A stretch of 49,228 nucleotides of DNA, taken from an uncultured bacterium. GTDB taxonomy: Bacteria; Verrucomicrobiota; Lentisphaeria; Victivallales; UBA1829. The notes beneath the pieces are model-generated. The model ran no database searches. It worked only from the letters and a program-made list of their open reading frames with translations, and was not told the DNA's origin. The position numbers were made by a program, and so were the translations under genes. The stretch covers positions 1 through 49,228 of the forward strand of contig CASFTV010000040.1 of NCBI GenBank assembly GCA_949297765.1. The letters run 5' to 3'. Shown here in pieces: positions 32,827 through 47,558 of this stretch (position 1 is its first letter; each line of letters opens with the position of its first letter).

Positions 32827-35800
32827 TTACCAGTGATAATACCGATAGGGATCATCCTCCGGGATTGCCTGATCGGCGTGCATCCGGAAGACATCGCGAA
32901 TGGAGAACAGGCGGGGAGAGCCTGCGATTCCCCCTACGTTGAAAATATCGTTGCAGAGGATGACGATTTCATGGCGTCCGGGCTTCAGTTCTCCCGGGGC
33001 GAAACGGTATTTCCGGGAGACATTCCAGTAATCTTTCGGATTGGTCTTTTTTGTAATTTCCCCGAGGAATTTTCCATCCATCCAGATCCAGCTTTCGTCA
33101 TCCACGGCGCCGATTTCCAGTTCGAGGGGTTCCGCGGCAAGAGCCGGAGCGAGATCAAAGCTCTTCCGATACCAGAAATATCCGTTTTTCCCTTTCAGCT
33201 CCGGAATATCCTGATTGAACATGCCGGGGACATTGACCTTTCTCCAGTTCCGGACGTTTCTGAAATCCGGGAGATTGTTTCCTTTGCGAAGAGTCCCTTT
33301 GAGATCCTCCATGCCTTCCCAGGAGCCGGAGAGGGCGAGCGACATACTGGTCTGCGCTGCGGCCGCGCGGAACTGATCGGCCAGACCGGTTTCCGCTTCT
33401 GCTCCGAGATTGGCGAGCAGACGCGACGCGGTATAAAGTCCCCGGCGGATCGTAGTCCTCTTGATATACTCTTTTCCATTGATCCGGTACGGCGGCATCT
33501 GATAAAACACAACCGTTCCTTTTCCGATCCGGACGCTCCGGAGCAGACGTCCTCCGGCGGAGTCCGCGGGGAACGCCGCAAACGTTTCCTCATAGCGCAG
33601 ATGGAGATCCGCATCGCAGAGGCCCTCGAATTCCGGCGTTTCCGCCAGCTGCGGGACGCGGTCGGTGTAAAAATTCCCCTCTTCCACGGCGAGATCCGGC
33701 ACAAGACGGCGGATTTCCGCGGCGTTCCATCCGAGCGCAAGGACCTTTCCTCCGCCGTTCAGCGTCTGCAGAAGATTCTCCGGAAGAGCCTCTCCGGAAG
33801 AAACCACCAGAAGTGCATTCCCGGGCAGAGGTTCGGACGCCGGCGAAGCGGGAATCCGCAGCTGTTCCAGCAGTTTGCGCGCATCCTGCCCCCGGTAGAA
33901 GACCGGGCGCGTTTCGGGCGTTGCACAGTTCTCCAGAAGAGCGAGAAGTTCCGCCAGAGTATTTTCCGCCTGCGGCTCATTGCGGGTGCGTCCCGAAACG
34001 TTGAGCTGACAGAAAAGGATTTTCACCTTTCCTTCGCGGAAGAGAAGCGCCGGGGCGTACTGGAGATCGAATCCGCCGTGGTAGATGGGCAGCCAGTTTC
34101 CGCGCGACGGCTTTTCCGGCAGAAACTCGGCGACATTTCCGCGCTGTCCGCTGTACCAGATGTGCGTATTCATAAATCCGTTCCAGGAACTCTTCGGGTA
34201 TTGGCGGTTGATCTCCGCGCCCGCCATGAAATAAGGACGCAGAGTCGAACTACCCCTCCAGTCGGAGAGGACGGCCGATGCTGTATTCCCGACCGGGAAC
34301 AGAGTCCGCAGTCCGTGTTCCGCTCCCCGGATTCCCAGACGGTTCAGCTGTTCCAGTTTCTGCTCCAGAACAAAAAGCCGGAGTCCTTTCTTCAAACGGT
34401 CGGAAAGCGGGAAGGGGATCGAATCCATTCCGCCGCGTCCGATCACCAGCATGTCGATTCCGTCCAGATCGCTCTCTTTCCGGATCTCTTTTGTCCGTAT
34501 TCCCAGCGTTTTCATCAGAGGCGCGGCCGTTTTTTCAGGATCCCACACGCCGATCCGTCCCCGCAGACGCACCGCGGGCGGAGGCAGTATGGAGAAGGAA
34601 AACGAATCCCGGAGAACATCCCCTTCCGCAAAGCGGAATTCCGCATCAATCTGTCCGCGTCCCGCCGGAGCCTTGTCCGGAATTCTGAACTGGATCGGTA
34701 TTTCCGCCCGTTCGCCGGGCCGGATCCGGACGGAGGAGGCAATCCATTTTCCCGTTTTCCCGGTTTTCCAGCGGTATTCGACCGTCTGATCGTGCCGGGT
34801 GTCATTGAGAATCAACAGAGATTTTTCCACCGTCTCCCCCGGACGGAAATGGGAGGACTGTTCCGTGAAATCTCCCGCTTTCCCCGCAATCCATCCAAGC
34901 TGTTCCCGATACCCGTACTCCAGCGCTTTTCCGGTCGGATTCACGCGGAACGTGCTGAACGGATCGCTCAGGAGATAGCTGGACGGACGAATCCGGTCGG
35001 CAACCGGCCCCGGCGCCTTCAGATTTTTGAACCGGTCGGGATGAAGGGAGACATTCACCGCTTTGACTATATCGTGAAAACTGGAATGATCCCACGGCTG
35101 GAATCCGGAAAGTCCCCGGGCCCGCAGATCGCGGAGATTGCGCGTCAGCATCATGGAGCGCACCTTGTGTGTGGACGGATCGCGCAGGACATCCCCGGCA
35201 GTCAGAAAGCGGGTCGGCGTATTGTTCTTCGCGGCGGCGTATTCCCGCCGGAACATCCGCATTTTCGCTTCATTGAGCGTGTAGGCTTCCTCGCCGAGAT
35301 ATTCCGCGTTGAATTCATCCAGCCAACTTCCCTGCACTTCGGGAGAGCGCCAGATAAACGCGGGTCCCCGGTTGCTCGACCAGCTCGCCACATGCGGAAT
35401 GCCGTATTCCACGAAAAGGATCGGCATGGTTCCTTTCTTCTCCCAGTGTTCCAGCCAGTCGGAGCGTTCCTGGGCGGGTACCCAGTTCAGATAGAAATTC
35501 TGCGCGGAGATTCTGCCCAGATTGCCGGCGTCGTGATGGTAGACGGGCCGGGTCGGATCAATGGATCGGATGATCGCTTCCGCCTTGAGTCCGGCGGCCC
35601 GGCGTTCGGTTCCGAGTCCGGCATCTTCCGGACGCCAGTCGGTTCCCATTGTCAGCGGATTCTGCATGTCGGCATAGCCGAGCGCGTTGTGGTTGACCGC
35701 GTAAAGAACCAGTCCGGGAACGTTCTGCACGCGGCGGATCCGGTAGAGACAGAGTTTCCGGTAGGCAGCGGCCGTTGCGGGATCATCAAGATTCCCGCCG

Positions 35801-38004
35801 AAATCGGTGATCGCATGCGGCATCGCAAGCGAGGTGAGAATCCCGTATTTCGAAAGGACCGTGCGGAACTGATCGTTGTAGCTGTTGCCGCCGATCCGGA
35901 AATTGTAGCAGCGGTCGCCGTCGAAGAGATAGTTGATGCCGATTGATTTCGCCGTGCGGGCAAGATGGACATACTTTTCCCGTGTCGCATCCGCGGCGGA
36001 ACCCGTGTGGTTGATCGGAAGGGAGCGGAGATGGATCGTTTTGCCGTTGAGAACCAGGTTCCGTCCTTCGATCGCGAATTCCCGCACCCCGAATTCCTCT
36101 GGATACAAGCGGTCCAGTGCGTTACCGGAGGCATCCCGGAGGGTCATGTCGAGCGTATAGAGGTGGTCCGGCGTGTCGATGTCCCAGAGTTTCGCATCCC
36201 GCCAGATGGAGCGGAAGGTGTGACGGAACTCTGCTTTCCCGTCGGTTTGGAAGGGAGCCGAGCGGAAGGTTTTGACGATTTTTCCGTTCTCGCGGATGAC
36301 CGCCTCCAGCGTATAGCGTCCGGCGGGAAGTTTGTTGAATCCGGTGTCGAAGAGGATGGAGCCGTCGGAAACCGGACGGGTTTCGATGCGCACATCGCTG
36401 ATCTCATGCCGCGCCGGGACCGAGAGCAGCCACGCATCGCCGACAAGTCCCTTGTTCGGCAGCTCCAGACGGGCTTTGTATTCCCGGCTCATCCCCATGA
36501 AATGACTGAATTCAGCCGGGTCGGCGGAAAGACGGATCCGCAGCTTCTGCTTTGTTCCCGGTTTCACCAGAGAGGTGATTTCCAGTTCTCCGCCCGGGAA
36601 GGTCAGCTCTCCCGCGCGGACCCCGTCGACAAAGAAGAGTGCGACGCCCTGAATCAGGTCAAAATCCAGCTTGATTTTCCGTCCCTTCCATTCCGCGGGG
36701 ACGGTGAATTCCCGCTCATACCATCCGCAGCGGAGATCCTGTTCCCGGACACCTCTCATCTCCCGCGCAGGCAGATAGAAAAGATGATCGCAGGCACGGT
36801 TGGTCCGGTCGGGCCAGGCCGCCGGAACTTTGAACCATCCCCATCCGTCGTTCGGCGGGTTTTCCCGCTCCGCCGCGAGAAATGCCGGACGGAAACGCCA
36901 CAGTCCGTTCAGCGACACCTTTTCCCGGAACGGTGTTGTCACGCGCGCCGCATCGTCAAGACGGAACAGCGCTTCGGGTGCCGATCCGTCCGGCGGCGGA
37001 AGATTCCGGATTTCCCGGATCAGTCGAACGTCCACATCCTCAATCGCCACCGTTCCCGAAGCACCGTAATTTGCCGGAACGACCTGGAGAACCGGCGCTC
37101 CCCGGGGAATCGCGTATGTCCGGTCAATCTCCTGGCGCTCATAGGTGCCGAGAAAGGTCGGAATTTCCAGATATCTGCCGAAGAGTTTTCCGGAACGATC
37201 CCGGAACATCATATCCAGTCTTGCGTTCTGCCAGCTCAGCTTTCCCCGGACAACGCGGTCGGTCCGGATGCTGTACCGGACCCGGACCTCCGCTCCGGGA
37301 TGATCGGCGGGAAGCGCGGAAAGCTCCGGCGGAAGCGGGATTGGAATGGAGAGAATGCACGATCCGCGATCCATGTAAAACGATCCCTTCCCGTTCCGCC
37401 ACTCTACGCGCATTCCCGGCGGAATCGCCCGTTTTCCGAGCGCCTGCGGCGTCAGGAGATTGGTGTCGAACGGAATTTGCGAAACGAGAAAATCCCGGTA
37501 CTCCTGTTCGGAGAGCGCACGCAGGACCAGATCCGAAAATTCAATTTTTCCGCCGGTCCCGAAATTGCCCGGGTCCAGACGCAGCTCCGCCGCCCCCTCC
37601 GGAACCGGATAGGCGCGCAGACAATTCACAAACTCCTTCTGCGTTCCGGAAGCCCCGAACACCGCCGGCCATTCGCCGACCGCTTCGCCGTTCCGGGAGT
37701 GGAACCGCATTGCCATGCGTCCGTTCCGCCAGCCTTCTTTCCCGGGAGTCAGTCCGGTCGCGCGCATCTTCATGGAAAGCAGAAGAGCTTTGCAGTTCCG
37801 GGGAATGCGGAGACGAAAACCGGTCCGGCCTGGCCCGTCGACCGCGATCCGGAGCCGTCCGTTTTCAGCGGAAAGAGTCACATTTTTCTGCGTTTGCCAT
37901 CCGTTCAGCGGCCGGTCGCCCGGTGAGAGCAGAAGATTCCCGCTCTCCGCAAACACGGAAAACGAAAGCGTCAGAAGAAGGAGAAGTCGTTGTTTCAGAT
38001 TCAT
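32827..38004 (-). CDS. Giant exported GH2-like multidomain protein
   Basis: 1725 residues with a signal peptide (about 1-19, SFSVFA/ESG); AGGAGG before the start. Order: two CBM-like beta domains (about 25-165 and 200-340), GH2 sugar-binding domain (about 355-510, SLNGLWRFRPAF), Ig-like domain (510-610), GH2 TIM barrel (620-1000), beta domain, a glutamine-amidotransferase-like Rossmann region (about 1150-1530), and a second GH2-type jelly roll at the C-terminus (about 1580-1700). The nucleophile is kept (VEYGIPHV, about E866), but where the acid/base GNE normally sits the text is VLYAVNHNALGY (about 771), with no Glu. So it may be an unusual or non-canonical glycosidase, or a binding protein. 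It follows the pseudopilin gene on the same strand. Confidence 0.8.
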   Translation of the reverse strand: MNLKQRLLLLLTLSFSVFAESGNLLLSPGDRPLNGWQTQKNVTLSAENGRLRIAVDGPGRTGFRLRIPRNCKALLLSMKMRATGLTPGKEGWRNGRMAMRFHSRNGEAVGEWPAVFGASGTQKEFVNCLRAYPVPEGAAELRLDPGNFGTGGKIEFSDLVLRALSEQEYRDFLVSQIPFDTNLLTPQALGKRAIPPGMRVEWRNGKGSFYMDRGSCILSIPIPLPPELSALPADHPGAEVRVRYSIRTDRVVRGKLSWQNARLDMMFRDRSGKLFGRYLEIPTFLGTYERQEIDRTYAIPRGAPVLQVVPANYGASGTVAIEDVDVRLIREIRNLPPPDGSAPEALFRLDDAARVTTPFREKVSLNGLWRFRPAFLAAERENPPNDGWGWFKVPAAWPDRTNRACDHLFYLPAREMRGVREQDLRCGWYEREFTVPAEWKGRKIKLDFDLIQGVALFFVDGVRAGELTFPGGELEITSLVKPGTKQKLRIRLSADPAEFSHFMGMSREYKARLELPNKGLVGDAWLLSVPARHEISDVRIETRPVSDGSILFDTGFNKLPAGRYTLEAVIRENGKIVKTFRSAPFQTDGKAEFRHTFRSIWRDAKLWDIDTPDHLYTLDMTLRDASGNALDRLYPEEFGVREFAIEGRNLVLNGKTIHLRSLPINHTGSAADATREKYVHLARTAKSIGINYLFDGDRCYNFRIGGNSYNDQFRTVLSKYGILTSLAMPHAITDFGGNLDDPATAAAYRKLCLYRIRRVQNVPGLVLYAVNHNALGYADMQNPLTMGTDWRPEDAGLGTERRAAGLKAEAIIRSIDPTRPVYHHDAGNLGRISAQNFYLNWVPAQERSDWLEHWEKKGTMPILFVEYGIPHVASWSSNRGPAFIWRSPEVQGSWLDEFNAEYLGEEAYTLNEAKMRMFRREYAAAKNNTPTRFLTAGDVLRDPSTHKVRSMMLTRNLRDLRARGLSGFQPWDHSSFHDIVKAVNVSLHPDRFKNLKAPGPVADRIRPSSYLLSDPFSTFRVNPTGKALEYGYREQLGWIAGKAGDFTEQSSHFRPGETVEKSLLILNDTRHDQTVEYRWKTGKTGKWIASSVRIRPGERAEIPIQFRIPDKAPAGRGQIDAEFRFAEGDVLRDSFSFSILPPPAVRLRGRIGVWDPEKTAAPLMKTLGIRTKEIRKESDLDGIDMLVIGRGGMDSIPFPLSDRLKKGLRLFVLEQKLEQLNRLGIRGAEHGLRTLFPVGNTASAVLSDWRGSSTLRPYFMAGAEINRQYPKSSWNGFMNTHIWYSGQRGNVAEFLPEKPSRGNWLPIYHGGFDLQYAPALLFREGKVKILFCQLNVSGRTRNEPQAENTLAELLALLENCATPETRPVFYRGQDARKLLEQLRIPASPASEPLPGNALLVVSSGEALPENLLQTLNGGGKVLALGWNAAEIRRLVPDLAVEEGNFYTDRVPQLAETPEFEGLCDADLHLRYEETFAAFPADSAGGRLLRSVRIGKGTVVFYQMPPYRINGKEYIKRTTIRRGLYTASRLLANLGAEAETGLADQFRAAAAQTSMSLALSGSWEGMEDLKGTLRKGNNLPDFRNVRNWRKVNVPGMFNQDIPELKGKNGYFWYRKSFDLAPALAAEPLELEIGAVDDESWIWMDGKFLGEITKKTNPKDYWNVSRKYRFAPGELKPGRHEIVILCNDIFNVGGIAGSPRLFSIRDVFRMHADQAIPEDDPYRYYHW

Positions 38005-40215: not shown

Positions 40216-41097
40216 TCACTGCCATAAATCTTCAAAAATAAAACATTGATAAGGATACTTCCTGCTGAAATCTTCCAGTTTCCGGACATAGACTTCGAGA
40301 TAGGGAATGAGATCAGTTCGTTTTCTGGATTTGAGTTCCGGGCGGAGTTCGGGACCGTAGAAGGCGGAGAATTCCGTATGGCGGCGTGTCCGGATTGCAA
40401 AAAGGGGAAGGACGGCACAGCCGGTACGGGAGGCAATGTAGAAGGCGGCGGTCGGGAATTTCGCTTTTCCGCCGAGGAATTCCAGTTCGACGCCTTCTCC
40501 TTCCAGACAGCGGTCGCCCATGATGCAGACGATTTCGCCGCGTTCGATGGCGTCGAAGACCTCGATGAGTCCGCCCATGTCGGATTGGGTGGAGATGATC
40601 CGGACGGGGTTTTTGAGTCCGGAGAGCGCCAGCGTCTTATCGACATTCAGATTCCGGTCCGGAGTGACGAGGATGTTGACCGGTTTGCGGGCGACATGGA
40701 GTCCGCCCATGATCGCATTCCATCCTCCGAAATGGGAGGTCAGCAGGATAAATCCCTTCTCCTGATCCATCAGGCGTTCCGAAAGTTCCTCGTCGACGAA
40801 CTTCCAGCGGAGCTTTTTCCGGATCATCGCCGCATTTTCGACGAGGGCCTGTCCCTGACTGGTGAAGAGCGCCCATGTGTGATAGAACATCGCAAGGGGT
40901 CCGGCTCCGGGGAAACGATGGGAAAGATAGGGCCTTGCCGCCATTCTCGCCTTCCGGTCGAAACAGGTATAGAACAAGGCGATCACCCAGACGAATTCGC
41001 AGGTCCGGTTTGTTCCGAGGATCCTGAGCATCAGCAGGAAACAGCGGATGCCGAATGCGCTTCCTCTGGAATCACTGAGATTTTCCGTCTGCGCCAT
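40216..41097 (-). CDS. LpxL/HtrB-like lipid acyltransferase
   Basis: 293 residues from ATG 41097; the start overlaps the GT2-DUF2062 gene by 26 bases. Typical of the lysophospholipid/lipid A acyltransferase family: an N-terminal hydrophobic stretch, GFILLTSHFGGWNAIMGG at the active site, MGDRCLEGEGVELEFLGGKAKFPTAAF and FAIRTRRH. The catalytic H is H122; the fourth residue after the following FGGW is N127, where HX4D/E would be usual. It likely transfers an acyl chain to a lipid or glycolipid acceptor at the inner membrane. Last gene of the six-gene cassette. Confidence 0.85.
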   Translation of the reverse strand: MAQTENLSDSRGSAFGIRCFLLMLRILGTNRTCEFVWVIALFYTCFDRKARMAARPYLSHRFPGAGPLAMFYHTWALFTSQGQALVENAAMIRKKLRWKFVDEELSERLMDQEKGFILLTSHFGGWNAIMGGLHVARKPVNILVTPDRNLNVDKTLALSGLKNPVRIISTQSDMGGLIEVFDAIERGEIVCIMGDRCLEGEGVELEFLGGKAKFPTAAFYIASRTGCAVLPLFAIRTRRHTEFSAFYGPELRPELKSRKRTDLIPYLEVYVRKLEDFSRKYPYQCFIFEDLWQ

Positions 41098-42247
41098 TGC
41101 GCCTCCTCTGTAAAAACGATGTGATGAAATAGACCGCCGTTCCAGCGGCAAATCCCCAGAACGGCGCCAGCACCAGACTCCCCAGGAACCATTCAAACAA
41201 CCGGAAATGCAATTCCTTCACGCACGTTTGAAGCGTCAGTTCCGTCAGCCAGTGCCCGTTGCGCATCCGGAAGCCGAGTTCGATGCAGAGGAACGGGGAG
41301 AGCGGCGGCATATAGAGATTCTGAATCGCCAGCGCCATGATCTTGTTGAGATGCAGCCGCTCCGCCGTATAGAGAATCGCCAGAATGTGACAGCCGGGAA
41401 GCGGAAGCACCGCCAGAAACGATGCGATCCCCGCCGATGCCGCCAGCCCCTCCGGCGACGCATTCTCATTCAGCAGCGCCCGGAACAGCTCCCGCGGCCG
41501 GAAGATCGAATACGGAAACCGCGGCGACGGACGAAGTTTCCTCTTCGGAATCGGCAGCATCCGGATCCCGATCAGATGAATATGAAGGCACGTCAGGCGG
41601 AAGTTGTCCTTCCACGGATGAAAATGCGAGATCCTCTCCTCTTTCTTCGGATAATGCACATGGACCGGAACATCGTGAAGTTCAAGATTCGCCCATGCGG
41701 CGCGGGTCAGGACCTCCGTTTCAAAGGTGTAGCGGCGTGTCAGGAAATGAAGCTGTCCGATGTAGCGGACCGGATAGGCGCGGAACCCGCTCTGACAGTC
41801 GCCGACTTTGATCCCGGTCTCAATCCGCATCCAGAAATTGGCGAATCTTCGTCCGAACCGGCTGGAGTCCGGAATGTTCGGCCCGGAAAAGTCCCGGCAG
41901 CCGATCACCAGCGAAAAATCATTCCGCTCCAGGAAGGGGTAGAACCGGGGAATGTCCTCCGGATCGTGCTGTCCGTCGGCGTCGATCGTAATCATGTAGC
42001 GGACCTCCGGATCTTGCCTGAGATGGTTCAGCGCCGTCAGAATTGCCGCGCCCTTGCCGAGATTGCGGCTGTGGCGCAGAACGGTGACATCCAGTCCCGC
42101 GCAGCATTCGGCGAGATTCGCATCGGTGGATCCGTCATCGACCACCAGCACGTTCGGGAGGATGCTCCGGGCGCGCGCGGCGATGCCGGGTGCGGTGGCG
42201 GCATTGTTGTACGCCGGAATGACACACCAGATTCCCCGGAGATTCAT
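41072..42247 (-). CDS. GT2 glycosyltransferase with C-terminal DUF2062
   Basis: 391 residues. Residues 1-230 are a GT-A family 2 enzyme of the polyprenol-phosphate-mannose type: CVIPAYNNA, VVDDGSTD (about 35-42), SRNLGKGAAILTAL, IDADGQHDPEDIPRF (DxD about 98-104). The rest is a DUF2062 membrane domain with hydrophobic helices (SFLAVLPLPGCHILAILY, FEWFLGSLVLAPFWGFAAGTAVYF). This fusion is typical of aryl-polyene and related lipid gene clusters. It would add a sugar to a lipid carrier. Overlaps the radical SAM gene by 4 bases (ATGA) and the acyltransferase by 26. Confidence 0.88.
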   Translation of the reverse strand: MNLRGIWCVIPAYNNAATAPGIAARARSILPNVLVVDDGSTDANLAECCAGLDVTVLRHSRNLGKGAAILTALNHLRQDPEVRYMITIDADGQHDPEDIPRFYPFLERNDFSLVIGCRDFSGPNIPDSSRFGRRFANFWMRIETGIKVGDCQSGFRAYPVRYIGQLHFLTRRYTFETEVLTRAAWANLELHDVPVHVHYPKKEERISHFHPWKDNFRLTCLHIHLIGIRMLPIPKRKLRPSPRFPYSIFRPRELFRALLNENASPEGLAASAGIASFLAVLPLPGCHILAILYTAERLHLNKIMALAIQNLYMPPLSPFLCIELGFRMRNGHWLTELTLQTCVKELHFRLFEWFLGSLVLAPFWGFAAGTAVYFITSFLQRRRNGADGKSQ

Positions 42248-43566
42248 GCGTCCGCCCCTTTCCCGAACGAGCGCAGACGCGCGTAGCCGAGTTTGTGAAG
42301 CATCCGGAGTTCGTTGTTCTTCGCATCGGGCGGATAGATGCAGAAACGACTCCCCCGGAAGCCGTCCAGAAGAGTCTCATGAAGAAGTTCGGGATCCAGT
42401 CCGTCCGCGAAATAATAAAGCTCTCGGATCCCGTCCCATCCCTCCGGGATCTTTCCTTCGCGCCGTGCCGTTTCGCAGAGCGGTGTGCCGGGGAAAAGAC
42501 GGATTCCCGAAAACACCAGTGTATGGACCGGTTCGAGCGCCCGCAGATGGGCGATTCCCCGCCGGACGGTTTCCATCGTCTCGCCCGGCCCGCCGAACAT
42601 GACATTGGCGGTTACGGCGATTCCTGATTCCAGAAGCAGACGCGCGCTCCGTTCCGCTTCGGCGAAGGTGAAGGATTTGTCCAGTCCGCGCAGAGTTTCG
42701 TCGGTTGCCGCGTCGATGCCCAGTTCCGCGGCGATCATGCCGCACTCCCGCATCCGCGCGACGTCCGCGGCGGAGAGGTTCAACGGCGTGAGAAATGCGG
42801 CGAACGGAACATGGATCCGGCGTTCGTGCATCCGTTCCAGAAGGGAGAGATATTCCTTTTCCGGATCGTTGAATGTCGCATCGACAAAATAAAACATGGT
42901 GTCGGGCCAGTTTGCGGCGAGTTCGGAGAGCTGATCGAGCACGGCGTCGTTTCCGCGCTCCCGGACACGTCCTCCCTCCAGCGCCGGATAGGTGCAGTAG
43001 GCGCAGCGGAACGGACAGCCGCGTTTGGTCTGGATCGGAAGGAGGTGCGTCTCCCGGTGATAGTATGCAAGCAGATCGTCCGGATAGTGCGCGGCGGACT
43101 GGGGGCCCGGCCGTCCGAAGCGGAGTTTCGGCCCGTCCGTTTTTCCCTGTTCCAGTTCCCGGATCAGTTCGAGGACCGCGTGTTCGCCTTCTCCCGCGAT
43201 TCCCCGGTCGGCGCCGGAAAGACGGAGAATCGTTTCCGGAAGCAGGGAATATCCCGGTCCCCCGAGAAAAACCGGAGCATCCGTCTCCTCCCGGCAGACC
43301 TGGATCATGCGGAAAGCGTTTTTCAGAAATCCCTTCTCCGCACTCCGGCTGTTGACCGTGTCGAGATTGCGGATGCTGAAGCCGACCGCTTCCGGACGGA
43401 ATGCCCGGATTGTCCGCGGCAGATTCTCCGGTCCGTGAACGAGCGCATCAAACTGGAGGACCTCGTGTCCCGCTTCCGTCAGCGCGCCGGCAATCACGCT
43501 CATTCCGAGCGGATACACCGGATAGGGATCCGTGCAGAGATTGGGGGCAATCAGCAGAATCCGCAT
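42244..43566 (-). CDS. B12-binding/radical SAM protein of lipid-biosynthesis type
   Basis: 440 residues. The N-terminal Rossmann-like domain (ILLIAPNLCTDPYPVYPLGM...GPGYSLLPE) resembles cobalamin-binding domains of radical SAM methylases, though the DxHxxG motif is not clear. The [4Fe-4S]/SAM site is CPFRCAYC, C184, C188 and C191. The barrel shows FYFVDATFND and MFGGPGETMETVRRG. Such enzymes methylate, crosslink or rearrange lipid and polyketide chains. In a cassette with ketosynthase and acyltransferase, it probably modifies the acyl or polyene chain. Its start overlaps the previous gene by 16 bases. Confidence 0.85.
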   Translation of the reverse strand: MRILLIAPNLCTDPYPVYPLGMSVIAGALTEAGHEVLQFDALVHGPENLPRTIRAFRPEAVGFSIRNLDTVNSRSAEKGFLKNAFRMIQVCREETDAPVFLGGPGYSLLPETILRLSGADRGIAGEGEHAVLELIRELEQGKTDGPKLRFGRPGPQSAAHYPDDLLAYYHRETHLLPIQTKRGCPFRCAYCTYPALEGGRVRERGNDAVLDQLSELAANWPDTMFYFVDATFNDPEKEYLSLLERMHERRIHVPFAAFLTPLNLSAADVARMRECGMIAAELGIDAATDETLRGLDKSFTFAEAERSARLLLESGIAVTANVMFGGPGETMETVRRGIAHLRALEPVHTLVFSGIRLFPGTPLCETARREGKIPEGWDGIRELYYFADGLDPELLHETLLDGFRGSRFCIYPPDAKNNELRMLHKLGYARLRSFGKGADA

Positions 43567-44102
43567 TCCGTCACCGCCGAAACCTGAAGCGTTTCCGATT
43601 CAAATTCAAACAGCAGGAGGGCATCCGTTCCCGGATCGGCGAGCGAGAGCTTCAGATCGCGGATCAGCGTTTCGCGTCTGCCGTCCGTATCCAGATAGAA
43701 TGCCGGCCCGTGCAGGCCCAGCGCGATCGCGGCTTCGCAGAGCGGTGTTGTCGGCAGTGTCCCGACAAACAGCTGACCGCGTCCTCCGTCGCGCCCGTGT
43801 TCGATATAATCCTGAAAATAGGCGAGGTTCTCCGTGCGGCTTCCGTCTGTTCCGTATCCGGTCAGCACGATCCGGTCCGACGGCTCCATTCCGGCGTCGT
43901 ACAGCGCCGCTGCCGCCCCCAGCATCGCCAGTTTCACCTTGAGGCATCCTCTCCGGAAGTCCTGCGCATGGACAACCGGAACTCCCGGAAGCGCCGTCAG
44001 TTCCGTCAGCAGTTCCGCCGGGGAAGCTCCCCGGAGTTCAAGACCTCTCCTCTTCAGAAGAAGACGTGTGCCTGAAAGTTCCGCTTTTCCCGCGATGTTC
44101 AT
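43551..44102 (-). CDS. Truncated ketosynthase-like protein (chain-length-factor-like)
   Basis: 183 residues from ATG 44102, overlapping the ketosynthase stop as ATGA; the longer frame is shadow. Segments such as QDFRRGCLKVKLAMLGAAAALYDAGM, IVLTGYGTDGSRTENLAYFQDYIEH and FVGTLPTTPLCEAAIALGLHGPAFYLD look like the N-terminal part of a ketoacyl synthase. It stops before or without the catalytic Cys, His and His. A truncated partner resembles the chain-length factor in heterodimeric ketosynthases. This is an inference from weak similarity; it could instead be a regulatory or scaffold protein. Confidence 0.6.
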   Translation of the reverse strand: MNIAGKAELSGTRLLLKRRGLELRGASPAELLTELTALPGVPVVHAQDFRRGCLKVKLAMLGAAAALYDAGMEPSDRIVLTGYGTDGSRTENLAYFQDYIEHGRDGGRGQLFVGTLPTTPLCEAAIALGLHGPAFYLDTDGRRETLIRDLKLSLADPGTDALLLFEFESETLQVSAVTECGFC

Positions 44103-45175
44103 TCCAACCCCTCCAGAACGAGCGCCGTATTGAGTCCGCCGAATCCGGAATTCAGCGAGAGAACCCGCGGGCCGCGCAGCGGCTGGACGGACGGCGAGAC
44201 CATCTTTTCCGCTCCCTGTTCCGGAATCCGGAGTCCGGCCTGCGGAAAGAGTTCGCCCCTCCGGAGGACCTCCAGAGCCAGCACCGTCTGGACCATTCCG
44301 GACGCGCCGAGCGCATGTCCGCAATTCCCTTTGACCGATGCGAGCGGAATCTCGTCTCCGAAGACGGCACGGATCGCTTCGATTTCCATGTTGTCGTTGT
44401 AAAGGGTTCCCGTTCCGTGACCGAGGATTCCCCCGATCTGTTCCGGTTCCGTTCCCGCGAGGGCGGCGCGGATGGCGCAGGCAAGCATTTTTCCGTCGCT
44501 CCGCGGCGCGGTGATGTGCTGAGCGTCTCCGCTCATTCCTGTTCCCGTCAGACGGATCGGCTGTTCTCCGTTTCTCTGTGCGGAAAGCACAAGCACTCCA
44601 GCCGCCTCTCCGAGGAACAGCCCCGACCGGTCCCGGTCGTAGGGTCTCGGACGTTCCGCACTCATCGCGCCGAGCGAGGAAAATCCGGAAAATGTAAATT
44701 CGCTTACAAGATCACACGCCGCGACAATCACCCGATCCGCAATCCCGAGTGCGATCATCCGGTATGCGCGGTCCAGTGCGGCGTTGGTCGAAGCGCAGGC
44801 CGCCGAGACGATGCACCCGTTCCGTTTCCGGAATTCCCGGAGTACCGTCCCGAGCAGCGAATGCAGGGTATCGGGCCGGTCCGGCGAGAGACGGTCGATC
44901 TCTCCCACCGTACTCGCCAGCAGAAGCGGCGTATCATCCGGAAGATCCCGCACCGTCGCCGCGAGGAATCCGACCATCGGCCGGCAGAGCGACTCCTCTC
45001 CGGTGCATTCGAGTCCGGGAACCGTGGATGCCTCCCTGCATGCGAAATTTTCGGCGGGGAACCGGGTGATCGGAGAAAATGCCGTTTCTCCGCGGAAGAC
45101 CGCCTCCTGCGCGGCCTTTTTCCCGAAGCCGAATCCGCAGACGAGTTCCGCGTCTGTGAGAAACACGTCACGCAT
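44099..45175 (-). CDS. Beta-ketoacyl-ACP synthase (FabF/KAS-II type)
   Basis: 358 residues, shorter than FabF (about 410). The catalytic triad is complete: C127 in VSAACASTN, H253 in LGHGTGTLYND and H287 in VKGNCGHALGASG; FGGLN-type ending FGGLNTALVLE is also present. It catalyses decarboxylative condensation of an acyl group with malonyl-ACP. No acyl carrier protein, ketoreductase or dehydratase lies in the window, so these would be shared with the core fatty-acid pathway or sit elsewhere. Overlaps its neighbours on both sides (8 bases with the thioesterase). Confidence 0.92.
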   Translation of the reverse strand: MRDVFLTDAELVCGFGFGKKAAQEAVFRGETAFSPITRFPAENFACREASTVPGLECTGEESLCRPMVGFLAATVRDLPDDTPLLLASTVGEIDRLSPDRPDTLHSLLGTVLREFRKRNGCIVSAACASTNAALDRAYRMIALGIADRVIVAACDLVSEFTFSGFSSLGAMSAERPRPYDRDRSGLFLGEAAGVLVLSAQRNGEQPIRLTGTGMSGDAQHITAPRSDGKMLACAIRAALAGTEPEQIGGILGHGTGTLYNDNMEIEAIRAVFGDEIPLASVKGNCGHALGASGMVQTVLALEVLRRGELFPQAGLRIPEQGAEKMVSPSVQPLRGPRVLSLNSGFGGLNTALVLEGLE

Positions 45176-45641
45176 GGAACGCGCCTTCCCGCCAGCTTCT
45201 CCGACAGCGTTCCCAGAGGTCCGGCGGACAGAAGAGAGGCTCTCCCGTCCGGAGATCGGTGAACATCTGAACGGTATATCCGGTTCCGGCGGTCTCGCCG
45301 GTTTCGTTTTCGATCCGGTACTCGGTGTTCAGTCTGGCGCCGTCCGACCAGTGGAGCGAGGCCGTGACGGAAAACATTTCATCCAGACGCAGCGGTTTGA
45401 AATAATCCACATGAAACTGCACGACGGGGGCCGCCACACCGGCTTTCCGGAATGCCGCATAGGTCAGTCCCACCTTGTGTCCGAGTTCGGTATGGGCCTC
45501 CTCGAAGAACGCCGGATAGCGTCCGTGCCACGCAATGCCGAGCGCGTCGACTTCGCTGAACCGGAGACGGCGGCGGATCGTGACCGACACTTGTTCCGGA
45601 ACCCCCTCTTCTTCTGTAAAATAGGATTGTCGTCTGCGCAT
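45168..45641 (-). CDS. 4HBT-type hotdog thioesterase
   Basis: 157 residues; the core SVTIRRRLRFSEVDALGIAWHGRYPAFFEEAHTELG carries the YbgC/FcbC-type motif with the acidic catalytic region DALGIAWHGRY. Further downstream VQFHVDYFKPLRLDEMFSVTASLHW is the usual strand pattern. It hydrolyses an acyl-CoA or acyl-ACP thioester, or may act as a dehydratase-like hotdog protein. First gene of the six-gene lipid cassette, 3 bases after the DUF523 stop. Confidence 0.85.
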   Translation of the reverse strand: MRRRQSYFTEEEGVPEQVSVTIRRRLRFSEVDALGIAWHGRYPAFFEEAHTELGHKVGLTYAAFRKAGVAAPVVQFHVDYFKPLRLDEMFSVTASLHWSDGARLNTEYRIENETGETAGTGYTVQMFTDLRTGEPLFCPPDLWERCRRSWREGAFHA

Positions 45642-45644
45642 GAA

Positions 45645-46127
45645 TCACTCTTCCATCAGGCGGAGCAGTTCCGGAAAATCGGTCTCCTCCACCACCGGGA
45701 GGTTCGGAAAACGGCGTTTCACGAGAGCCGCAAACAGTCCCTGGCCCGAGGCGCTGAGACACCGTCCGCTCCGATTGAACTTCTCCACATTCGCCCAGCC
45801 GCAGGAGGGGGATTTCGATTTGAAAATATAAGCGTCGATCTTGAGCCGTTCGAGTTTGTCCAGCTTGGTCTGCGCCCAGTCGAGCATCTCCGCCGTGACG
45901 TCCTCCCCCGTCTCGATCACCCGCAGGCGCGTTCCCGACGCCGATGCCTCCAGGCGCATCGGCGGCCGCGGAATCGACAATCCGCATTCCACCTCCGGAC
46001 ACACCGGAATGAAATCCACTTTGTCCTTCAGCGCCTGAATAATCTCCGGATTCATTTTCGAGGTCCCGTCATAGCGGTACTTGAGTCCGATCAGACACGC
46101 GCTGACCGCCACCCTGATCTTTTTCAT
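45645..46127 (-). CDS. DUF523 protein (TudS-like thiouracil desulfidase family)
   Basis: 160 residues. Conserved cysteines C11 (VSACLIG), C48 (ECGLSIPRP) and C109 (SPSCGW) match the three that bind a [4Fe-4S] cluster in DUF523/TudS proteins, where an open iron takes the sulfur from thiouracil-type substrates. Activity on thionucleobases is an inference from the family. It sits between cysS (18 bases) and the lipid cassette (3 bases), so it is probably cotranscribed with both. Confidence 0.85.
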   Translation of the reverse strand: MKKIRVAVSACLIGLKYRYDGTSKMNPEIIQALKDKVDFIPVCPEVECGLSIPRPPMRLEASASGTRLRVIETGEDVTAEMLDWAQTKLDKLERLKIDAYIFKSKSPSCGWANVEKFNRSGRCLSASGQGLFAALVKRRFPNLPVVEETDFPELLRLMEE

Positions 46128-46145: not shown

Positions 46146-47558
46146 TTACAGAGGTGTGATCTCCGGTCCCGCCGGAGTATCCTTGATCGCCCATCCCAGC
46201 TCTTTCAGACGGTCGCGGATCTCATCCGCCTTCCGGAAATCCTTTGCTTTTTTCGCCGCGGCGCGTTCCTCCGCAAGAGCCTTCACCTCGTCCGGAAGAT
46301 CCGTTCCGCCTTTTTCCTCCGCCGCATCGACGTCGAATACCGCGAGAATGCGGTCGAAATCCCGGAAACAGTCCAGAACCGCCTTTCCTCCTTCGGACTC
46401 CAGCTCTCCTTTTGCTGTCAGCGCGTTGACCGCGTGTTCCAGCGTGTGAACCGCCGCGACGGCTTCCGCAACATTGAGATCATCGGCAAACGCCTTTTTG
46501 AAATGAGTCCGGGCGCTTTCGCAGGCGGCTTCGGCGGCCTCTCTGCCTTTCGCTCCGGCAGGGAGGGTTTTCAGACGCTGGAAGAACGCATCGAATTTCC
46601 GGAGCGCGGACCGCGCCTGATCCAGGGCGGCAAGACTGAAGTTCAGTTTGGAGCGGTAATGGGTCCCGATCAGCGTCCAGCGGATTTCACGTCCGCTGTA
46701 CCCCAGTTTCTCCAGATCGCGGATCGTGTAGAAGTTCCCGAGGGATTTGGACATCTTCTTCCCGTCGACAATCAGATGTTCGCAATGCAGCCAGTAGTTC
46801 ACGAACCGGCAGCCGTTCGCCGCCTCGCTCTGGGCGATTTCGTCCTCATGATGGGGGAACATGTTGTCGACGCCGCCCGTGTGGATATCAAACGTTTTTC
46901 CGAGATACTTCTGGCTCATCGCGGAGCATTCCAGATGCCAGCCGGGACGGCCCGGTCCCCATGGACTGTCCCATTTGACATCGCCGTCGTTTTCGTCCCA
47001 GGCCTTCCAGAGGGCGAAGTCCGCGACGGAATCCTTCGCGTATTCATCGGTGTTGATGCGGACCCCCGCCCGCTGGTTTTCCATGTCGATTCTGGCAAGA
47101 CGTCCGTATGCGGGAAAACGCGAAATGGAAAAATAGATGCAGTTGTCGGGTGCGCGGTAGGCGTATCCCTTCTCCAGAAGGACCTGGATCATTCCGATCA
47201 TCTCCGGAATGTGGGTGGTGGCCTCCGGATAGATTTCCGCCCGTTCGATCCGGAGTTTGTCCAGATCCTCGAAAAACGCTTTCTTGTAGATTGCCGTGAA
47301 TTCGCGAAGCGGCATGCCTTTCGCCCGGGAATCGCGGATCGTCTTGTCGTCGACGTCGGTCAGATTCATGACCTGTGTGACCTTGTATCCGTGGTATTCG
47401 AGCGTCCGCCGCAGCAGATCTTCGAACAGGTACGCGCGGAAATTGCCGATGTGCGCAAAATTGTAGACCGTCGGTCCGCAGGTGTACATGCGGACATTGG
47501 ACGCATCCATCGGTTCAAATTCCTGAATGTTCCGGCCGAGGGTGTTGAAGAATTTCAT
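46146..47558 (-). CDS. cysS: Cysteinyl-tRNA synthetase
   Basis: 470 residues, class I. Zinc and cysteine-binding signature C27 in MYTCGPTVYNFAHIGN (HIGN 36-39), then WHLECSAMS, HHEDEIAQSEA and the KMSKS loop KKMSKSLGNFYTI. Charges tRNA-Cys. No start anomalies. It lies 15 bases after a small hypothetical gene and leads into DUF523. Confidence 0.97.
   Translation of the reverse strand: MKFFNTLGRNIQEFEPMDASNVRMYTCGPTVYNFAHIGNFRAYLFEDLLRRTLEYHGYKVTQVMNLTDVDDKTIRDSRAKGMPLREFTAIYKKAFFEDLDKLRIERAEIYPEATTHIPEMIGMIQVLLEKGYAYRAPDNCIYFSISRFPAYGRLARIDMENQRAGVRINTDEYAKDSVADFALWKAWDENDGDVKWDSPWGPGRPGWHLECSAMSQKYLGKTFDIHTGGVDNMFPHHEDEIAQSEAANGCRFVNYWLHCEHLIVDGKKMSKSLGNFYTIRDLEKLGYSGREIRWTLIGTHYRSKLNFSLAALDQARSALRKFDAFFQRLKTLPAGAKGREAAEAACESARTHFKKAFADDLNVAEAVAAVHTLEHAVNALTAKGELESEGGKAVLDCFRDFDRILAVFDVDAAEEKGGTDLPDEVKALAEERAAAKKAKDFRKADEIRDRLKELGWAIKDTPAGPEITPL

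Follow-up and report, generated by a model that had tools for sequence, protein, structure and literature searches.

Six genes on the minus strand of contig CASFTV010000040.1, from an uncultured bacterium of the Victivallales (assembly GCA_949297765.1), were located at positions 40216-45641 by their open reading frames (ORFs) and protein families. They very probably constitute the middle block (module B in the following) of a type II polyene or fatty-acyl biosynthetic cluster of about 20 genes, which is related to the aryl-polyene (APE) clusters, carries a gene of the ladderane-type family TIGR04072, and is split in this genome into three operons on two contigs. Module B represents about the middle third of the cluster. 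The window, i.e., the whole stretch of 49,228 bases that was analysed, is an entire contig (C40) of a 4.23-Mb genome with a completeness of 98%. The cluster-level reading is based on the TIGR04072 membership of one of the gene products, the adjacency and order of modules A, B and partly also C in relatives, the presence of modules A and C in the same genome, and profile links to the APE proteins of E. coli. An earlier note on this DNA, made from the sequence alone, had described the six genes as a minimal pathway of a distinct class; the gene identities given there agree with the Pfam families, but in the relatives these genes form part of complete APE-like clusters, and the remaining modules are found on a second contig (C3) of the same genome.

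The fourth gene of module B (42244-43566) codes for a B12-binding radical SAM protein (Radical_SAM 66 bits, B12-binding 59 bits) that reaches 466 bits against the NCBIfam model TIGR04072 (cut-off 360) and contains an intact [4Fe-4S] motif, CPFRCAYC (CxxxCxxC). The family, designated rSAM_ladder_B12 or "lipid biosynthesis B12-binding/radical SAM protein", is named for ladderane-type lipid clusters, and the enzyme should accordingly be regarded as a member of a known cluster family rather than as the lone addition to an APE-like set proposed before. It is the only gene in the genome exceeding the cut-off, which is passed in 37 of the 388 genomes of the phylum. TIGR04072 and the module A gene c8 occur together in 30 of these 388 genomes, with 8 and 5 discordant cases (Fisher 3e-32, a nominal value, as the genomes are related). 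A radical SAM gene on contig C35 was considered as a second enzyme of the cluster and dropped, being of a generic B12 type and placed in another setting. Many relatives have a second B12-radical SAM gene (motif CRFNCFPCC) preceding TIGR04072, e.g., at L054 8206-9459 and L077 7540-8799, for which no NCBIfam model scores above its cut-off; no such second gene adjoins TIGR04072 in the window.

The neighbourhoods of TIGR04072, compared at about 40 loci from the phylum, show how module B is embedded elsewhere. Genes at these loci were called by codon score, clustered and mapped, in place of longest-ORF calling, which favoured antisense ORFs in G+C-rich DNA. Of the genomes whose TIGR04072 gene scores strongly, about 15 have module A adjoining module B (loci L053-L058, L063, L068, L070, L071, L073, L074, L076, L077 and L080), the usual order being LolA, MMPL, ApeI, thioesterase (TE), ketosynthase (KS) KS1, half-size KS, the optional second radical SAM, TIGR04072, GT2 and acyltransferase, followed, where the contig continues, by KS3, a half-size KS, acyl carrier protein (ACP), WS/DGAT and ligase. 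The neighbourhood comparison asked for in the earlier note therefore recovers, in substance, a complete cluster around these genes, which is the outcome that the note had named as refuting its reading. In a genome of the same genus (G086), modules B and C are contiguous and module A lies on a different contig, and in genome G046 the cluster is interrupted between KS1 and the half-size KS; together with the window, these cases show that breaks in the cluster are frequent and fall at varying points, and the window represents one extreme.

Genus g4, which belongs to the same family (G097, G100, G106, G120, G168), and also G014, G076 and G092 have clusters of the same order that lack TIGR04072; in these, the half-size KS is followed directly by GT2. 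In a tree of the glycosyltransferases, clusters with and without TIGR04072 are intermixed, with five changes of state, four of which are forced by well-supported branches; the true count is lower, because locus L051, whose contig ends inside the radical SAM gene, was wrongly scored as lacking it. The TIGR04072 position in the cluster is thus optional, and the intermixing points to repeated gain or loss of this gene as the probable history or, alternatively, to a transfer of clusters between lineages.

Contig C3 carries two further operons on one strand, module A at 43.8-55.5 kb and module C at 121.9-126.8 kb, whose gene orders equal those in the relatives. Read from 55.5 down to 43.8 kb, module A codes for FabG, a phytoene-desaturase-like protein, an ApeR-like KS (38% identity to E. 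coli ApeR), ACP, a PlsC-type acyltransferase, an FlxY-like AMP-ligase, a radical SAM/SPASM-dehydratase fusion, LolA, an MMPL-type exporter and an ApeI-like dehydratase, while module C, from 126.8 down to 121.9 kb, codes for a KS (KS3), a half-size KS (KS4), ACP, a WS/DGAT-like protein and an acyl-AMP ligase. The fusion protein (C3:47664-49118, corresponding to L009 1665-3119) and its relatives consist of a radical SAM/SPASM part with a C-terminal ApeP-like dehydratase domain; the dehydratase of genus g4 stands alone, and its match to the fusion is confined to the last third. An HxxxD motif (FSHLLFDG) in the WS/DGAT-C-like protein of module C (C3:123336-124649, L007 5337-6650) suggests an acyltransferase that forms esters. 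The WS/DGAT-like, ligase and c8 proteins are 63-67% identical to their same-genus copies.

The absence of ACP, AMP-ligase, ketoreductase (KR), dehydratase (DH) and exporter, on which the idea of a minimal cassette had been built, thus holds for the contig but not for the genome, as all of them are present on C3, including two AMP-ligases among modules A and C. A self-sufficient minimal glyco-acyl lipid pathway apart from APE clusters, which would rely on the housekeeping synthesis of fatty acids for ACP and the reducing steps, could still be argued from the isolated position and tight overlap of just these six genes and from a housekeeping-like FabG-ACP-FabF set on contig C11. We consider it very unlikely, since C3 provides dedicated ACPs, an ApeQ-like KR, ApeI- and ApeP-like DHs, ligases and an exporter with cluster-specific relatives, and since the synteny of the six genes within a full cluster elsewhere largely refutes it. 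The case also advises searching the whole genome before a cluster is named "minimal".

The relation to APE clusters proposed in the earlier note is borne out by a search of the E. coli CFT073 ape cluster (apeA-R) with profiles of the protein families described here, which ties 13 of the 17 E. coli proteins directly to modules A, B and C and 2 more weakly or indirectly. The KR profile matches ApeQ with 272 bits, and further matches are obtained with the profiles of MMPL (230 bits), PlsC (91 bits), LolA and ACP1 (59 bits each), ApeI (52 bits), the AMP-ligase (49 bits) and ApeP (42 bits); the KSs of the cluster match ApeO and ApeR. The DUF3261 protein is matched weakly at the MMPL C-terminus, and the chain-length factor (CLF) is tied via the chain KS2-KS4-ApeC. 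Each member of the anchoring and export set ApeD, ApeJ, ApeK, ApeL and ApeM is matched by a family profile; in E. coli, ApeD, ApeJ and ApeK have been proposed to anchor the polyene, and ApeL, ApeM and ApeN to export it (PMC8253772). The TIGR04072, WS/DGAT-like, FlxY-like and desaturase-like profiles yield no match in the CFT073 ape cluster.

Within module B, the first gene (45168-45641) codes for an ApeK-like TE (Pfam 4HBT_2, 59 bits), the family profile of which matches E. coli ApeK with 94 bits. The second gene (44099-45175) codes for KS1, a full catalytic ApeO-like KS (Ketoacyl-synt_C 79 bits) with Cys-His-Lys-His kept in all 17 aligned rows of its family. Over 239 aa, KS1 shares 34.7% identity with E. 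coli ApeO (E 1e-39), and its top NCBIfam model is PRK09185, whose cut-off is passed by E. coli ApeO and not reached by KS1. The third gene (43551-44102) codes for KS2, a half-size KS homologue with a below-cut-off match to ketoacyl-synt (16 bits) and a family of 18 members. This family aligns with that of the second half-size KS of the cluster, KS4 (hhalign 96.6%, E 5e-10), which in turn matches the ApeC structures 7f28_A (1e-7), presumably the Acinetobacter ApeO-ApeC entry, and 6qsp_B (0.004), with full-length FabF chains scoring equally well or better. The entry 6qsp is listed in PMC8358021; ApeC has one thiolase domain, and a half-size CLF is normal in APE clusters (PMC8358021). KS2 is thus probably a non-catalytic CLF partner, a label that we infer via KS4, as the KS2 profile gives nothing significant against solved structures. 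Direct alignment of KS2 to KS1 by hhalign gives no match, and the pairing of the two is suggested by the adjacency of their genes.

The fifth gene (41072-42247) codes for a GT2-DUF2062 glycosyltransferase (Glycos_transf_2 81 bits, DUF2062 34 bits) and the sixth (40216-41097) for an LpxL-like acyltransferase (Lip_A_acyltrans 66 bits). The family profiles of the two match the halves of E. coli ApeJ, with 184 bits to its N-terminal half and 131 bits to residues 259-550, respectively. DUF2062 itself had been counted among the APE signatures, but CFT073 ApeJ has no DUF2062 match. Nearly all LpxL-like enzymes of these clusters have HX4Q, those from the genus of the window have HX4N, and E. coli ApeJ has HX4E.

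Several points weigh against assigning the six genes to an APE-related cluster. The three blocks lie physically apart in this genome, so that we infer their joint action from the relatives. The gene calls outside the window were made by a simple mechanical ORF caller. KS2 does not match E. coli ApeC in a direct hhalign comparison, and its predicted structure (together with that of one relative) reached a pLDDT (predicted local distance difference test) of 42 and was not used. In the LpxL-like enzyme, the catalytic HX4D/E motif reads HFGGWN and is thus devoid of the canonical acidic residue; as judged from the sequences, this change is a lineage trait, because the radical-SAM-free relatives of genus g4 also have Q. 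Finally, no aromatic-starter enzyme was identified, although no search was aimed at ammonia-lyase or chorismate-lyase, which leaves the term "aryl" unsupported.

Homology and synteny show what the cluster is predicted to encode, namely full-size KSs whose genes are each followed by one for a half-size KS (KS1/KS2, and KS3/KS4 on C3), an ApeR-like KS, ACPs, FabG, ApeI- and ApeP-like DHs, a TE, GT2 with LpxL-like and PlsC acyltransferases, LolA and an MMPL exporter. The KS/half-size KS pairs, together with KR and DH, would assemble an ACP-bound unsaturated acyl chain, which the desaturase-like and radical SAM enzymes may modify by C-methylation or C-C bond formation. The TE would then free the chain or pass it on, GT2-DUF2062 and the LpxL-like enzyme may link it to an anchor of glycolipid type, in line with the role proposed for ApeJ, and LolA and MMPL would transport the product to the outer membrane. 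Only tentatively, we propose that this product may be an outer-membrane polyene glycolipid, so far undescribed, in which the TIGR04072 enzyme remodels the chain by methylation or carbon-carbon bond formation. We found no demonstration in the literature of the reaction catalysed by the TIGR04072 family, anammox ladderane lipids included, a question that dates back to a comparative study of 2009. If the enzyme does remodel the chain, the colinear clusters with and without its gene in one family represent a natural plus/minus experiment, and APE-type clusters differing by one TIGR04072 gene between the half-size KS and GT2 would make the reaction of the ladderane-associated radical SAM enzyme testable outside slow anammox enrichments. 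The original finding is thereby mostly explained, and its useful remainder is comparative.

The operon in the window can be delimited without regard to contig edges, since the window is the entire contig. From TE to the LpxL-like acyltransferase, the genes overlap by 8, 4, 16, 4 and 26 bases, as previously claimed (4 to 26 bases at five junctions). Short gene overlaps are common in operons and should therefore be taken as a sign of co-expression, not of novelty. The single transcription unit is upheld, but probably starts upstream of TE, as judged from two genes on the same strand, a DUF523 or 2-thiouracil desulfurase-like gene (45645-46127, Pfam 133 bits) ending 3 bases before TE, and a cysS-like cysteinyl-tRNA synthetase gene (46146-47558, assigned from its ORF and sequence only) located 18 bases before DUF523, with no promoter-like site in the DUF523-TE interval. 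Both belong to the host operon and lie outside the cluster. At the other end, the acyltransferase gene is probably the last one of the operon, because the downstream lacI-type gene has its own sigma-70-like promoter (40068-40040, 12/12 match, extended -10). The position of module B behind cysS, together with the three pieces of the cluster, would also fit a decayed, non-functional remnant of a cluster-breaking rearrangement, which appears quite unlikely given that every reading frame is intact, KS1 has retained its Cys, His, Lys and His and the radical SAM protein its CxxxCxxC motif, and all three modules are complete operons.

Elsewhere in the window, a tandem AACGTGTTAA repeat with 13-base spacing follows the promoter of the lacI-type gene just before the start codon (promoter and repeat within 40068-40000) and is likely an autoregulatory operator. 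A minus-strand ORF of 1725 aa (32827-38004) resembles, by eye and without a family scan, a secreted beta-galactosidase-type glycoside hydrolase, and a protein with homing-endonuclease-associated HNH repeats is encoded near the contig end (48304-48921).

Among known systems, the flexirubin clusters of Bacteroidota are approached by the module A ligase, which is closest to FlxY (391 bits, short of the cut-off of 520), and by the KR, which scores 255 bits against FlxB (cut-off 340). The ladderane-type clusters for type II fatty-acid synthesis of Kuenenia stuttgartiensis and Desulfotalea psychrophila contain radical SAMs, phytoene-desaturase-like and phenylacetyl-CoA-ligase-like (PaaK-like) proteins, a glycosyltransferase, FabF and a divergent FabF, FabZ, FabG and ACPs (PMC2649909), and 34 Kuenenia genes have been expressed in E. 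coli as an attempted test (PMC4790861). Compared with Kuenenia by its published gene list, the cluster described here shares all of these, including a TIGR04072-type B12-radical SAM and another radical SAM enzyme, with the phytoene-desaturase-like and PaaK-like proteins both in module A. This composition and the TIGR04072 match could indicate a true ladderane pathway yielding cyclobutane lipids as in anammox bacteria. We regard this as highly unlikely, as Desulfotalea has a syntenic cluster and yielded no ladderanes (PMC2649909), and as such clusters occur in Verrucomicrobiota and many other non-anammox phyla without assigned function or report of ladderanes (PMC9902471). Moreover, the half-size KSs and the APE-type anchoring and export genes set the present cluster apart. 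A literature search for a hybrid of APE and ladderane clusters in Lentisphaerae or Verrucomicrobiota yielded no dedicated description.

With the APE clusters of E. coli CFT073, Xenorhabdus and Acinetobacter, the cluster shares a KS with a half-size KS neighbour and an ApeR-like KS (PMC8253772, PMC8358021), in addition to ACPs, the ApeQ-like KR, ApeI- and ApeP-like DHs, the ApeK TE, the ApeJ-like GT2 and acyltransferase, the ApeD-like PlsC, the ApeL LolA and the ApeM MMPL. No counterpart of ApeB or ApeG is seen, and the genes are distributed over three loci in this genome instead of forming the single cluster expected of an APE system, whereas they are contiguous in many relatives. In further contrast to APE clusters, ApeJ is split into two genes with the glycosyltransferase bearing DUF2062, ApeP is joined to a radical SAM/SPASM domain in one protein, the KS/half-size KS genes are doubled, and TIGR04072, desaturase-like, WS/DGAT-like and FlxY-like proteins have been added.

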